From positions 1 through 64,000 of IMG/VR virus record IMGVR_UViG_3300029923_000015: a stretch of 64,000 nt of DNA, one strand, 5' to 3'. The notes under the pieces are model-generated. The model ran no database searches and was not told the DNA's origin. It saw only the letters and a list, made by a program, of their open reading frames with translations. Each line of letters starts with the position of its first letter. Position 1 is the first letter of the stretch. Both the position numbers and the translations under genes were made by a program. Shown in pieces: positions 2,186 to 14,091 of this stretch. This DNA is from a virus.

Positions 2186-2229
2186 TTGATATGAATTTAT
2201 ATAGTTAATATTAATTAATTACAATGGTA

Positions 2230-2727
2230 GCCTGACTTCAACAGGGTACATATAAGGACACTATACACGTCACGTGGAGTATAATGCCCTTATAGTACGA
2301 ATTGTCTAAATTAGCCTTTAGAATGAGCTTCTATTAGCGTAAAAGTAGGATAGAATGTGGTCGAGTGCCCAATAGCTGTCTGTATTGCATTGCTGTATCC
2401 TATATCATTACATAGGCAGCATGACTGCAACACTATGCTTATTCTTATTACTAACTTAGTATAATGCTCAATCACATGCATCATGCATATGCAGAGAGAG
2501 TGGCAGTGCTGTACTAGCTCCATAGGTGTCTAAACCAATGTCTAAGTCTTAACTCGACAAAGTGTTCCTAACACTGCCCTAATGATTGTATGAGAGCAGT
2601 CTTACCATCATTATAGTAAGAATACTTGTCCGATCTTGATCGATTCAGACGAATAGACGGGGGACTTCCATCCCACTTCGTTACCCCGGGAGCTTGACAT
2701 AGACAGTTTCACGCACGCACATATGTC
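2230..2727 (-). ncRNA. candidate large structured RNA, family unknown
   Basis: No credible gene lies here, but perfect nested hairpins follow one another for 500 nt. They are: TATAAGG/CCTTATA (2251-2257 with 2288-2294) enclosing TATAC/GTATA; TCTAAA/TTTAGA (2305-2310 with 2317-2322); TAGGATA/TATCCTA (2346-2352 with 2396-2402) enclosing CAATA/TATTG; CATAG/CTATG enclosing GCAG/CTGC (2411-2437); AGTGTT/AACACT (2561-2575); TCTTAC/GTAAGA (2600-2621); and GGGAC/ATCCC (2661-2674). The last has a G-U pair and a GGAA tetraloop only when read on the minus strand, which favours leftward transcription. The alternatives are a long 5' leader of the lipoprotein gene or a cis-acting DNA element. I cannot assign a known RNA family. 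Confidence 0.45.
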
Positions 2728-2833
2728 ATCAATTTTTTATTTTACCAAAAATTTTTCATTTCACGCGGTCATACATGTGATTAATTATTTTTTTTAGAAA
2801 ATTTTTTACAACACTGACAACAAATTATAGGTT
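2728..2833. other. AT-rich centre of the strand switch
   Basis: This is a strongly AT-rich stretch with several T-runs (for example 2734-2738) and A/T homopolymers, lying between the two oppositely oriented structured elements. It follows a GACATA/TATGTC inverted repeat (2696-2701 with 2722-2727), which with the T-run could terminate rightward transcripts. It could also be a divergent promoter region or an easily melted origin segment. Nothing in the sequence decides between these. Confidence 0.3.
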
Positions 2834-2847
2834 AATACGTTTATATA
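2834..2847 (+). promoter_or_regulatory. promoter-like motif AATACGTTTATATA, copy 1
   Basis: This 14-mer is identical to the one at 4683-4696, and its 11-bp core TACGTTTATAT occurs again at 3259-3269. I found only these three intergenic copies, all facing the rightward arm. This one ends 2 nt before the first helix of the candidate RNA at 2850, as expected for a compact phage promoter with its start just downstream. No clear Bacteroidota TTTG/TAnnTTTG pair overlaps it. Which polymerase would read it is unknown. Confidence 0.5.
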
Positions 2848-3200
2848 GTCGATGCCAGTCTCCAAAGGCTGAATCACCCTAAGGTAATCAAATAAGGGTT
2901 AGACATCGGATTATAATAGATTAACAGAGGACGTATATAAAGGTAGTAGGTGAGTACTTAAATGAGATAAAGGTCAAGCGCCAAACTCTATGCATTTATA
3001 GTCAATAAAAGGCCGTTAGTTAGTCTATTAGTTTTCTCCGGTAGTATCAAAAGATTAAGAGTACAAGTTAAATGCTGCTGCTAGAAATAGCTAAGAAGGA
3101 GAGATTGCGATAGGCAGATGGGTGAAACCGAAAGGTTACGTACGGGTTTAACGAGGAAGTTAATTGAAAACAAACCGAATAATGGCCGGTCTCAAGGGGT
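2848..3200 (+). ncRNA. candidate structured RNA with two GAAA tetraloops
   Basis: A three-way junction opens the element. CGATG/CATCG (2850-2854 with 2904-2908) closes over CAGTCT-CCAA-AGGCTG (2856-2871, one G-U pair) and ACCCT/AGGGT (2876-2880 with 2895-2899). Further on are two short hairpins with GNRA loops: GCTA-GAAA-TAGC (3080-3091) and AACC-GAAA-GGTT (3126-3137). The G-U pair and GAAA loops exist only on the plus strand. No ORF of note lies here, and a phage-type promoter motif precedes it. I could not match it to group I or II introns, RNase P RNA or tmRNA by eye. The 3' end is a guess. Confidence 0.45.
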
Positions 3201-3256
3201 AAACTATGTTCAATTGATAAATAAAAACTAAGAGAAGTAAAACAAAGGCTGTTATA

Positions 3257-3270
3257 ATTACGTTTATATT
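3257..3270 (+). promoter_or_regulatory. promoter-like motif, copy 2
   Basis: ATTACGTTTATATT contains the 11-bp core TACGTTTATAT (3259-3269) shared with the motifs at 2834 and 4683. It lies 28 nt upstream of the ATG of the first rightward gene (3299), a suitable distance for a promoter with a short leader. Confidence 0.5.
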
Positions 3271-3298: not shown

Positions 3299-3490
3299 AT
3301 GACACTAATAGACGAATCAATAGTCTTTGTAATAGCTATCTGTATAGGGTATGCTCTACATCCGTTAATAAATAGTATGATACTATTACTAGCAAATGCT
3401 ATTATGAGGCAAATGTGGAGATTTAATTCATTATTAAACAAGTTAAAAGAGGATGGATTACAGCACCGAATTAGCAATAAGGATAAATAA
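3299..3490 (+). CDS. small membrane protein (63 aa)
   Basis: The first rightward gene. It has one or two hydrophobic segments (residues ~8-35, including IVFVIAICIGYAL and MILLLANAIM) followed by a basic soluble tail. A small inner-membrane protein is the natural reading; no family is recognised. It begins 28 nt after a promoter-like motif and ends 17 nt before the next gene, so it is probably cotranscribed with the GroES-like and RNase H genes. The minus-strand ORF covering the same bases lacks such context. Confidence 0.5.
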   Translation: MTLIDESIVFVIAICIGYALHPLINSMILLLANAIMRQMWRFNSLLNKLKEDGLQHRISNKDK

Positions 3491-5471: not shown

Positions 5472-5848
5472 TGAACAAGTTTATAAAAACCATATCTCCA
5501 GACAATCTAGGTTATGAGTTTTTACGTAGCTTAAATGGATTATTAGATCTAACAGATAGAGAGTTAGAATTGCTCTCTATCTTCTTGGACTTATACTTAA
5601 AGAACATGAAATCCAGAAGAGGTAAAGCTCCAATAGACTCTACGGAGAATAGACGTCATGTGATGAGAGTAACTACAGTTACAAAAGATAATCTATGTAG
5701 ATATATAAAAATGTTTAGAGAGAAAAAGATATTCGTAATAGAAGATGGGATGTTAGTTATGAGTAGAGCCTTAACCCCTATAGTAATAGGTTCAAAGACA
5801 GTCCAAATAACAATGATATTAAAACTAAAAGAAAATGAACTACTATAA
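5471..5848 (+). CDS. putative winged-helix DNA-binding protein (125 aa)
   Basis: Residues ~25-50 (DLTDRELELLSIFL) look like a first helix. Residues ~72-98 (VTKDNLCRYIKMFREKKIFVIEDG) look like a recognition helix followed by a beta wing, an arrangement typical of winged helix-turn-helix regulators. It is basic in the middle (MKSRRGK). A transcriptional regulator or replication-initiation accessory factor is possible, but no named family is recognised. It is coupled to the upstream gene by TAATG, and its tail overlaps the next ORF by 14 nt. Confidence 0.6.
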   Translation: MNKFIKTISPDNLGYEFLRSLNGLLDLTDRELELLSIFLDLYLKNMKSRRGKAPIDSTENRRHVMRVTTVTKDNLCRYIKMFREKKIFVIEDGMLVMSRALTPIVIGSKTVQITMILKLKENELL

Positions 5849-6095
5849 TCCAACTAGTTATACTAAATGTCCATCTCTATGGTCTAGATTATTCAGATCA
5901 GAAGATACCACATATTATTTTACTTCTGACAATAAACTTGAATGGAAATCAAAAGGCCAAAGGAAAGCAGAGAAGGAATTGGCTGAATACAAAACAAAAA
6001 GAAATAATAAATGTAATCGTAACTTATATAATGATTACTATATTATAGTAAATAAATCATGGTATCCAAAAACACAGACATATATACTGTTTTAG
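5835..6095 (+). CDS. small basic hypothetical protein (86 aa)
   Basis: Tyr- and Lys-rich, with no membrane segment. The centre (KSKGQRKAEKELAEYKTKRNNK) is strongly basic, which suggests nucleic-acid or ribosome contact, but no motif is recognised. It overlaps both neighbours (14 nt upstream, 37 nt downstream), as expected in this tightly packed operon. Confidence 0.55.
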   Translation: MNYYNPTSYTKCPSLWSRLFRSEDTTYYFTSDNKLEWKSKGQRKAEKELAEYKTKRNNKCNRNLYNDYYIIVNKSWYPKTQTYILF

Positions 6096-11294: not shown

Positions 11295-11315
11295 TTATTG
11301 GTATATATAAAGAGC

Positions 11316-13860
11316 ATGATAGATTTTAATAAAAAAATAAAAAATAGCGAAAAATTTAGAGCGCCAGCAATTTTTTTCCAAAAACATGGACTATACTGTT
11401 TTTCCCCATATGGAACTACTGAGTATCTAACCTATTGGGATACTGAGGCCATTAGATGCGTAGAAGGATATACTGCCCCTGATGGGGATTGGATAAGTGG
11501 GTATAATTATTTTTACTTAAATTATTGTCCGATACTTAGATTAGTCGAATTTGAATATAAGGATAGGTTTGGTAACATGAAGATGCGCAGAGAAAAGGCT
11601 AGGAAATTTCCTGACTTTTATGATTATGACTACTATTACTTTATGGGCGTTCAGGAAGCGCAAGAGGAAGGTGCTCACATGGCAGTTTTAAAGGCTCGTG
11701 GTAAAGGTTTTTCGTTTAAAGGAGGATCGATGCTCGATAGAAATTATTATCTGATACCAGACTCTAAAGGCTATGCAATTGCATCTGAAACTGAATATTT
11801 AGTTAGAGATGGTCTACTTACGAAGGCCTGGGATTACATGGACTTCATAGATGAACATACTGCATGGGCGAAAAAACGTCAGGCTATTAATACAAAGATG
11901 CATAGAAAGGCTTCTATTATTACTACAGATGAAATGGGTAATAAAATAGAGGTTGGTTATAAGTCTGAGATAATTGGAGTATCATTAAAGAATGATCCCA
12001 ATAAGGCTCGTGGTAAACGTGGTCAACTAATCCTATGGGAAGAGGCAGGATCGTTCAAGGATATACTTCAGGCGTGGCAGATAGCTAGACCTTCTGTAGA
12101 AGAAGATGGTAAAGCTTATGGTCTAATGATAGCATTTGGGACTGGTGGTGATGAAGGTTCTAGATTTGATGGACTGAAAGAAATGTTTTATAATCCATCT
12201 GGATATAATATAAAATCGTTTCCAAACATATGGGATGAAGGGGCTGATGCAAATCAATGTGCTTTTTTTGTTCCTGTATACGCCAATATGTCTGTACTAG
12301 ATGAAAATGGACATAGAATGTTTATGGATAAGAATGGTAATAGTCTTAAGACTAAAGCTGTTGATTATGCCATGACCGAGCGCAAGAAAGTAGTTGACGG
12401 ATCCTCTGACTCAAGGGCTATTGATAGGTATATTGCAGAGAACCCTATAACTCCTCAGGAAGCTGTTTTAGAACTCACAGGGAACATATTCCCTAAGAAG
12501 GAATTAATGGTACAGTTGGCCTCAATACGTACAAATAAGAAGCTACAGGCATATAAGCAGGTCGGTGATTTGAATTATGTTAATGGAATATTGAGTTGGG
12601 AAATAAAACAAAAAGGAGATATAACTAAATACCCATTAGGTAGAGACGATAAGCATGAAGGATCAATAGTAATATGGGAACACCCATCACAAGACACATC
12701 AGGGCAATTATACATAGCGGGGTGTTTATTACCAGGAGAGCAAGTAATTACTGACTATGGATTAAAAAACGTAGAAGATGTATCATTTGAAGATAAATTG
12801 ATAAATGAAGATGGATTGGAAAAGAGTATCGTAAATCTACAAAGATATGAAAAAGTAGATGAACCTATATTTAAAGTAAAACCAAATGGATCTTTTAGGA
12901 CTACGACGTTTACTCAAGAGCATCCTATATTATTAGATTCTGGATTCAAAAAAGCATCTGAATTAAAGAAAGGAGATGTACTTAAAATACCAAATAGATA
13001 TATAGATAGTAATAATAATTATATAGATATTATATCTAAATATTTTACAGAGGATTTTAATTACAATGATCCATTATTTTGGTGGTTTCTAGGTATATGG
13101 ATAGGAGATGGTTTTAATAATAAGAATAGTCAATCTCATGATATATATGTTGCATTTGGAATCAAACAAATTGAAGAAGCAAATTTTTATAAAAACGTAG
13201 TTTATTCATTGTTCCATAGAAAAACATTAGTTTGTGTTAAAAATGGTGGAAATACTACTAGGTTTACTTATAAAATATTATATGATTTCTTAGAGAATGA
13301 ATTTGGTAGATATTCATATGGAAAAAGAATTCCAGAATGGGTTAAATATGCACCAGAAGAATTAAAAAAATATTTTATATCTGGATATTTAGATTCAGAT
13401 GGATCTGCATATTTTGATAAAGGAAAATTAAGAGTATCATTTACTAGTATAAATTTAACATTACTAGAGTCTATCCAAGATATTTTATATTCAATGAAAA
13501 TTAGAAATAGTATAGTCAGACACTCAAAAGAAGGTATATCTATATTTAATAATAAAGAATATAAACACAAAGAATCATATAAGGTATCAATTCCAACATC
13601 AGAAATAAAAAAAATATTGCCACTAGATCTTAGTATACTAAATAGCAGAAAAATTAATGAAATAGAGAAATACTCATCGTCTTTACCCAGAAACACCGTA
13701 GAGAAAGCAGTAGTCTACTTCGTGAACAAATACATATTCCTTAAAATAGAGAATATAGCAGAATCAAAATACACTGGTACTGTTTATAACTTTGAATGTG
13801 ATACACACACATATATGTGTAGGAATATCGTCACACACAATTGTGACCCGTTGACAAACT
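11316..13860 (+). CDS. terL: large terminase subunit, 5' exon with in-frame intein
   Basis: This exon encodes the ATPase half of the packaging motor: Walker A-like KARGKGFS (residues 126-133) and Walker B LILWEE (238-243). At residue 470 the host protein stops at YIAG and an intein begins; the protein resumes at CDPLTN, the first metal-binding Asp of the RNase H-like nuclease. The frame then meets TAG, with the T at 13860. Joining 13860 to 14092 removes a group I intron and reads CDPLTN-YDHDKAGTNSLG. Mature terminase would be 692 residues, normal for crAss-like phages. I chose ATG 11316; an in-frame TTG at 11298 is less likely. Confidence 0.9.
12723..13841 (+). mobile_element. LAGLIDADG intein in terminase
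   Basis: The 373-residue insert begins with Cys (CLLPGEQVITDYG), has the block B signature TQEHPIL and ends VTHN before an extein Cys, the four features needed for protein splicing. Between the splicing halves lie two LAGLIDADG helices, LGIWIGDG (intein residues 123-130) and ISGYLDSDG (219-227), so it probably also encodes an active homing endonuclease. It sits directly before the conserved CDP of the terminase nuclease, a conserved site of the kind inteins favour. Splicing should release a seamless terminase. Confidence 0.92.
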
Positions 13861-14091
13861 AGCGGTGCGATGTATGTCGTAAGAATTGAGCAAAATCGGT
13901 GAAAGTCTCTAGTAGAAAACACCGAGGTAAATAATTAGATTTCGAAAGGCTAATTATCACCGTAACGCGTAGCAGATGAATAAATATAATTCTGCCAAGA
14001 GTGCTCGACAAGAATCAAACTTGATAATGTACGCTGAGCTATATGGCGACATATAGAAGTAAGGATAAAAAGCCTTGCGATAACAAAACTG
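13861..14091 (+). ncRNA. ORF-less group I intron in terminase
   Basis: The standard group I helices can be drawn in order: P3 TTGAGC (13886) with GCTCGA (14003); P4 CGGTG (13897) with CACCG (13920); P6 GGT..ATAATTAG (13926-13938) with CTAATTAT.ACC (13950-13961); P7 GCGTA (13967) with TACGC (14030); P7.1 GCAGA/TCTGC (13972-13995); P8 CAAG/CTTG (14009-14023); P9 CTATAT/ATATAG (14039-14056); P9.1 AAGG/CCTT (14061-14076). P7.1 points to subgroup IA. The 5' exon ends in U and the intron in G, as the mechanism requires. Excision restores the terminase frame. P1 (ACU with GGU, 13858-13866) is short, so the exact 5' site is the least certain point. Confidence 0.85.

Follow-up and report, generated by a model that had tools for sequence, protein, structure and literature searches.

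The virus record IMGVR_UViG_3300029923_000015 (IMG/VR, 78.7 kb) includes the 64-kb stretch analysed here in its entirety, which we refer to as the window. CrAss-like phages rank with the most abundant viruses in the human gut and, judged by its structural genes, the phage represented here is crAss-like (Crassvirales); it encodes a portal of crAss type and a major head protein according to PHROG matches, and the portal gene has 73–74% DNA identity to three gut Suoliviridae, including cr4_1. An ORF upstream of the portal gene (11298–13862) is probably the large terminase, and looks interrupted by an intein that starts CLLPGEQV and ends VTHN. No tRNA was found within the 64-kb window and no RNA-polymerase DxDxD motif in its large ORFs, nor was a virion polymerase located in the window. 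Minus-strand genes end at 2185 and plus-strand genes begin at 3299, leaving a divergent gap of 1.1 kb in and around which we distinguish the following features.

2186–2700, minus strand: divergent conserved element, the partner locus of the RNA (fold z = -3.35; blocks present in relatives)
2707–2810, plus strand: two 52-bp tandem repeats, 73% alike, within the AT-rich centre upstream of the promoter
2819–2845, plus strand: bipartite promoter-like element, AAC-N14-TACGTT(T)ATA, ahead of the RNA
2834–2847, plus strand: AATACGTTTATATA motif in front of the RNA
2848–3216, plus strand: structured non-coding RNA, its 5' end placed from the promoter and P1 and its 3' end from where conserved sequence stops
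2850–2908, plus strand: 5' three-way junction (RNAalifold on seven homologues; strand pairing assessed helix by helix)
2850–2854/2904–2908, plus strand: P1, a weak helix (28/34 pairs)
2856–2860/2867–2871, plus strand: P2
2876–2880/2895–2899, plus strand: P3
2914–2920/3024–3030, plus strand: P4 (whole domain 2914–3030)
2921–3023, plus strand: P4 expansion of 103 nt, found in the window's subclade
3033–3039/3098–3104, plus strand: possible pseudoknot helix UUUCUCC/GGAGAGA, tentative
3053–3165, plus strand: long-range core LR1-LR2-LR3, with the strongest covariation
3053–3058/3160–3165, plus strand: LR1
3067–3073/3146–3152, plus strand: LR2 (65/66 pairs over 10 distinct helices, strands picked by eye)
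3075–3078/3114–3117, plus strand: LR3 (33/33 pairs over 8 distinct helices, strands likewise picked by eye)
3080–3091, plus strand: P6 hairpin, GCTA-GAAA-TAGC, with a GNRA loop (per-helix pairing and the 11-sequence alignment A6)
3127–3136, plus strand: P7 hairpin, ACC-GAAA-GGT (A6 and RNAalifold)
3174–3177/3187–3190, plus strand: P9 hairpin (alignments of homologues)
3193–3199, plus strand: conserved CAAGGGG, which completes the P9 element (3174–3199)
3242–3268, plus strand: a further promoter-like box (TACGTTTATATT at 3259), 3' of the RNA and ahead of the first gene

The folding energy of 2848–3236 is ordinary (z = +0.41 against shuffled sequence), so that folding alone is uninformative and the case for an RNA rests on comparison. 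Homologues were sought by pattern scans with conserved blocks, with a covariance model of the 3' core trained on seven sequences (R1), and by a synteny-guided scan that used the neighbouring MNKFIKT regulator. There are 11 distinct RNAs in 15 records, most of them metagenomic: 14 are contigs from IMG/VR and the remaining one is cr118_1 (NC_055872.1), a phage of the human gut. The first relatives (L065/L025) showed 87.5% identity over 448 nt across the RNA, above the 71% over 663 nt of the coding region behind it. R1 recovered the divergent contigs L166, L169 and L168, on which it had not been trained, with E = 4e-21, 1e-20 and 1e-12 respectively, and cr118_1 with E = 2e-6; the value for cr118_1 was 5e-12 with model R2, which by then included it in the training set. 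In several gut Suoliviridae a covariance-model search detected no copy, which suggests that the RNA is dispensable to some relatives, and crAss001 likewise has no detectable homologue. BLASTN against phage records gave chance matches only, because the RNA diverges too fast.

Several candidates were discarded. Matches to Bhargavaea in a genome scan were judged to be chance, this being the wrong host group, as were pattern matches in L124 and L133, where the alignment ends at the pattern itself; weak model matches in L195 and L196 (E 0.002–0.013) were rejected by eye, their cores lacking both the conserved motifs and a promoter box. Three further observations concern these and related records. 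At its edge, contig L166 has a second, nearly identical RNA 3' end (1–110), which precedes the full copy by about 1 kb and is either a duplication or an assembly artefact. L181, which bears RNase HI and no detectable RNA, has a divergent gap (5830–5960) in which short hairpins, perhaps those of a reduced RNA, come after a GCGTTATAT box. The MNK regulator gene contains in-frame stops in some gut crAss-like records (L123, 11973–12362; L177, L187 and L147), perhaps through stop-codon recoding.

Pairing is conserved well beyond chance. In a MAFFT alignment of seven homologues (A4), 95.1% of pairings at the 38 proposed pairs are standard and there are 16 two-sided changes; shuffles gave 82.5% and 9.0, neither observed value being reached in any of 500, and standard pairing drops to 36–50% when the partner is slid. 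The alignment of all 11 sequences (A6) was fitted to the model and is biased toward it; here 95.7% of model pairs are standard, two-sided changes occur at 19 of 25 pairs (0/500 shuffles), and sliding the partner leaves 25–37% standard. Allowed its own structure on A6, RNAalifold returned LR2, LR3 and P7 with a GUG/UAC pair, with two-sided changes at 13 of 17 pairs, while on the seven-sequence set it recovered the three-way junction, with such changes in six of 13 pairs. For all 11 5' domains it predicted no structure, owing to misalignment of the divergent members by MAFFT. Across the homologues G-U pairs outnumber A-C mismatches by 22 to 2, identifying the plus strand as the folded one. On these comparative grounds we consider 2848–3216 of the plus strand to be a genuine structured non-coding RNA, some 290 nt in length (approximately 370 nt in the window's subclade); evolution has preserved its shape in at least 11 phage lineages, one of them from the human gut. 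A sequence-only reading of the window had proposed such an RNA, folded on the plus strand only and comprising the three-way junction and the two GNRA hairpins P6 and P7; conservation and covariation in the sets of 7 and 11 sequences uphold this, and its helices were correctly placed, the homologues retaining the pairing of both hairpins. It missed the long-range core, however, and the RNA is more extensive than the two hairpins had indicated.

Within the core, the 3' strand of LR2 has a fixed position directly after (A/G)CG(U/A)ACRG, and its two strands change in step: GUUAAAU/GUUUAAC, CAUAU/AUAUG, AUUAAGU/ACUUAAU and GUUAUGU/ACAUAAU, as well as GUUUAUG/CAUAAAC, GUUCAUG/CAUGAAU, GAAUCA/UGAUUC and AAUCUA/UAGAUU. 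P7 is flanked by near-invariant GUG and ACGUAC (the element spanning 3122–3143), and the near-invariant unpaired motifs GGUGUA...GACGUACRG, UCAAAA, AAGGRGAGANUGNGAUAA and AGGGG are of the kind that a binding or active site would show. The UUUCUCC/GGAGAGA helix is invariant in seven homologues except for one U-A/U-G change, and is partial or absent in L166, L169, L168 and cr118_1, where its inner part is lost; since these four divergent members do not keep it, a universal pseudoknot is held as tentative. The sequence of cr118_1 hinted that the 5' CUCC might instead pair with the terminal GGGG, which L166 and L169 contradict. The P4 expansion is replaced by a small loop in L172, L167, L170, L166, L168 and cr118_1. 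In two relatives of the window's subclade P4 and its expansion are identical to the window at 116/117 and 113/117 positions (97–99%), against 143/176 and 141/176 in the 3' core (80–81%), such that the expansion domain may be either more strongly constrained than the core or recently acquired.

The sequence-only reading had also placed the RNA directly behind a phage promoter motif, and the box indeed recurs: a TRCGTT(T)ATA-type sequence precedes P1 by 3–8 nt in 10 of the 11 homologues, the box of L168 being degenerate (CGTTAGTATA), and upstream of the RNA the offset from AAC to TAC is 17 nt in most homologues. The bipartite motif occurs before the RNA, before the first small gene and before the operon approximately 1.4–1.5 kb further on, and it also precedes genes in Suoliviridae that lack the RNA. 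AAC-N14-TACGTT is present twice in the window against an expectation of 0.25, and reversed-pattern controls for the bipartite motif yielded one match per search. As for the box that separates the RNA and the first gene, L163, L161, L172, L167, L170, L166 and L168 retain it in the equivalent position. The Bacteroidota -7 box is TAnnTTTG, which TACGTTTA resembles at the sequence level, and the polymerase concerned may be of the phage virion or the host type. Early genes of phi14:2 are reported to be read by a virion polymerase (PMC8375218, the crAss001 paper).

Homologous RNAs occupy the same position in the divergent gap throughout, 5' of GroES-like and RNase HI genes, both of which lie downstream wherever the neighbouring genes were examined, and RNase HI was found in every RNA-bearing record searched. 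Facing the RNA is the minus-strand element: seven relatives keep a block of it (TTGTCGAGCTAAGACTAAGACA..TGTTTAGAC), and its C-rich 5' part (..CAAGCCCCCGG...AATACCCCCGTC) is present in 11/11, including cr118_1. Between the two lie the tandem repeats (TTTCACGC..CATAYATG.. with T/A tracts), which appear iteron-like and have counterparts in relatives (TTTCGCG..GTCATA in several homologues); these repeats and the G-rich blocks near the RNA are probably DNA elements. The divergent pair around an AT-rich centre that the sequence-only reading described is thus present; that the pair forms an RNA-based control or replication locus, as it suggested, is conjectural. GC skew in the window does change sign at the AT-rich centre, and record G003 has a local minimum at the RNA; however, skew tracks gene direction, which confounds any reading as an origin, and the cumulative minimum of cr118_1 lies about 5 kb from the RNA.

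We are inclined, with some reserve, to regard the RNA as a free-standing, trans-acting scaffold made from the phage promoter at the strand switch. The promoter would yield a separate transcript, some 290 nt long or, in the subclade, 370 nt, folding into the 5' three-way junction, P4 with its variable expansion and the long-range stack LR1-LR2-LR3, which would bring together P6, P7 and the near-invariant single-stranded motifs. The folded RNA might then bind a phage or host protein in trans, this putative partner recognising the 3' AGGGG together with the invariant motifs left unpaired around P7. An independent RNA is consistent with the conserved structure, the plus-strand bias, the synteny and the promoter-like motif at the 5' end, and the further promoter box that follows it, ahead of the first gene, favours a separate transcription unit. 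The RNA carries no mark of a terminator at its 3' end, and could for that reason be the leader of a longer mRNA. As a structured 5' UTR it would control both the small genes that come after it and the GroES-like/RNase HI operon, to which it is always directly 5' and co-oriented, with no clear terminator between them. We think such a cis-acting role improbable, since in most homologues a further promoter box, nearer the gene, intervenes between the RNA and the genes; moreover, the structure stops approximately 80 nt short of the first start codon, which is not obviously masked.

The main rival to a trans-acting scaffold, unlikely in our estimation but to be taken seriously, is a replication-origin RNA: the transcript would run across the strand switch on its origin side and either prime replication or regulate the primer, on the model of ColE1 RNA II, and RNase HI would process the RNA-DNA hybrid. 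ColE1 RNA II is a plasmid replication primer, and the likeness consists in a structured RNA at a putative origin with RNase H encoded nearby; RNase H is available in the RNA-bearing records, though this is not specific, and the RNA described here belongs to a phage rather than a plasmid, with sequence similarity to RNA II not demonstrated. The location at a strand switch, beside the tandem repeats and AT-rich tract, the sign change of skew in the window and the minimum in G003 all suit an origin, as does RNase HI in all tested RNA-bearing records, when among RNA-less records it was found only in L181/G012 (G005 being cut off before the region). Against this, skew follows the genes, as noted, and co-occurrence of RNase HI and the RNA is explicable by one shared ancestry and one loss: in a tree of the regulator the RNA-bearing contigs form one group and cr118_1 stands beside L181, so that the correlation reduces to very few independent events and the link, although nearly perfect as a raw count, is phylogenetically confounded. 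A bolder scheme, in which paired divergent RNAs flanking the tandem repeats constitute an RNA-based switch for replication or takeover in Suoliviridae crAss-like phages, the plus-strand RNA acting with the adjacent RNase HI, is speculative and in our view doubtful. Large size, abundant junctions, GNRA loops and the possible pseudoknot might recall a mobile or self-processing RNA, an intron-like ribozyme or its remnant, which we consider very improbable: the RNA has a fixed position, its promoter lies exactly at the 5' end, it interrupts no gene, and Rfam models of introns and ribozymes were matched under neither curated nor relaxed thresholds. Equally little credence is due to a conserved DNA element, such as a protein-binding or packaging site; adjoining repeats and G-rich blocks are probably of that nature, but without an RNA it is difficult to account for long-range compensatory changes with G-U pairs confined to one strand.

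Searches of the window and its relatives with cmscan against Rfam 15 at curated thresholds gave no family match, whether to a ribozyme or to a phage RNA, and relaxed searches gave unrelated sub-threshold matches only. The packaging RNA of phi29 (pRNA) is similar as a phage non-coding RNA of conserved fold and variable sequence; the crAss-like phage RNA is longer, differs in architecture, phage group and position, and has no Rfam match. A link to bacterial Y RNAs and other partners of TROVE proteins comes to mind because the early genes of the crAss-like phage crAss001 include one for a TROVE protein (PMC8375218); this idea was rejected, since a TROVE (Ro-like) partner (PF05731) is absent from all RNA-bearing records tested and crAss001 itself lacks a detectable RNA homologue. 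Nearest in kind are GOLLD and ROOL, large ornate RNAs of phages and prophages (PMC12286853), which are also phage-encoded, extensively structured, non-coding and of unknown function; unlike them, the crAss-like phage RNA is at most half the size, has a different core and no Rfam covariance-model match, and lies at an early-region strand switch rather than in a tRNA island. In open-access full-text literature we found no description of a structured non-coding RNA in crAss-like phages. An RNA of approximately 290–370 nt at the head of a gene block offers a direct target on which transcripts can be mapped, the structure probed and solved, and partners sought by pull-down, and the field also gains a promoter-like motif common to many Suoliviridae.
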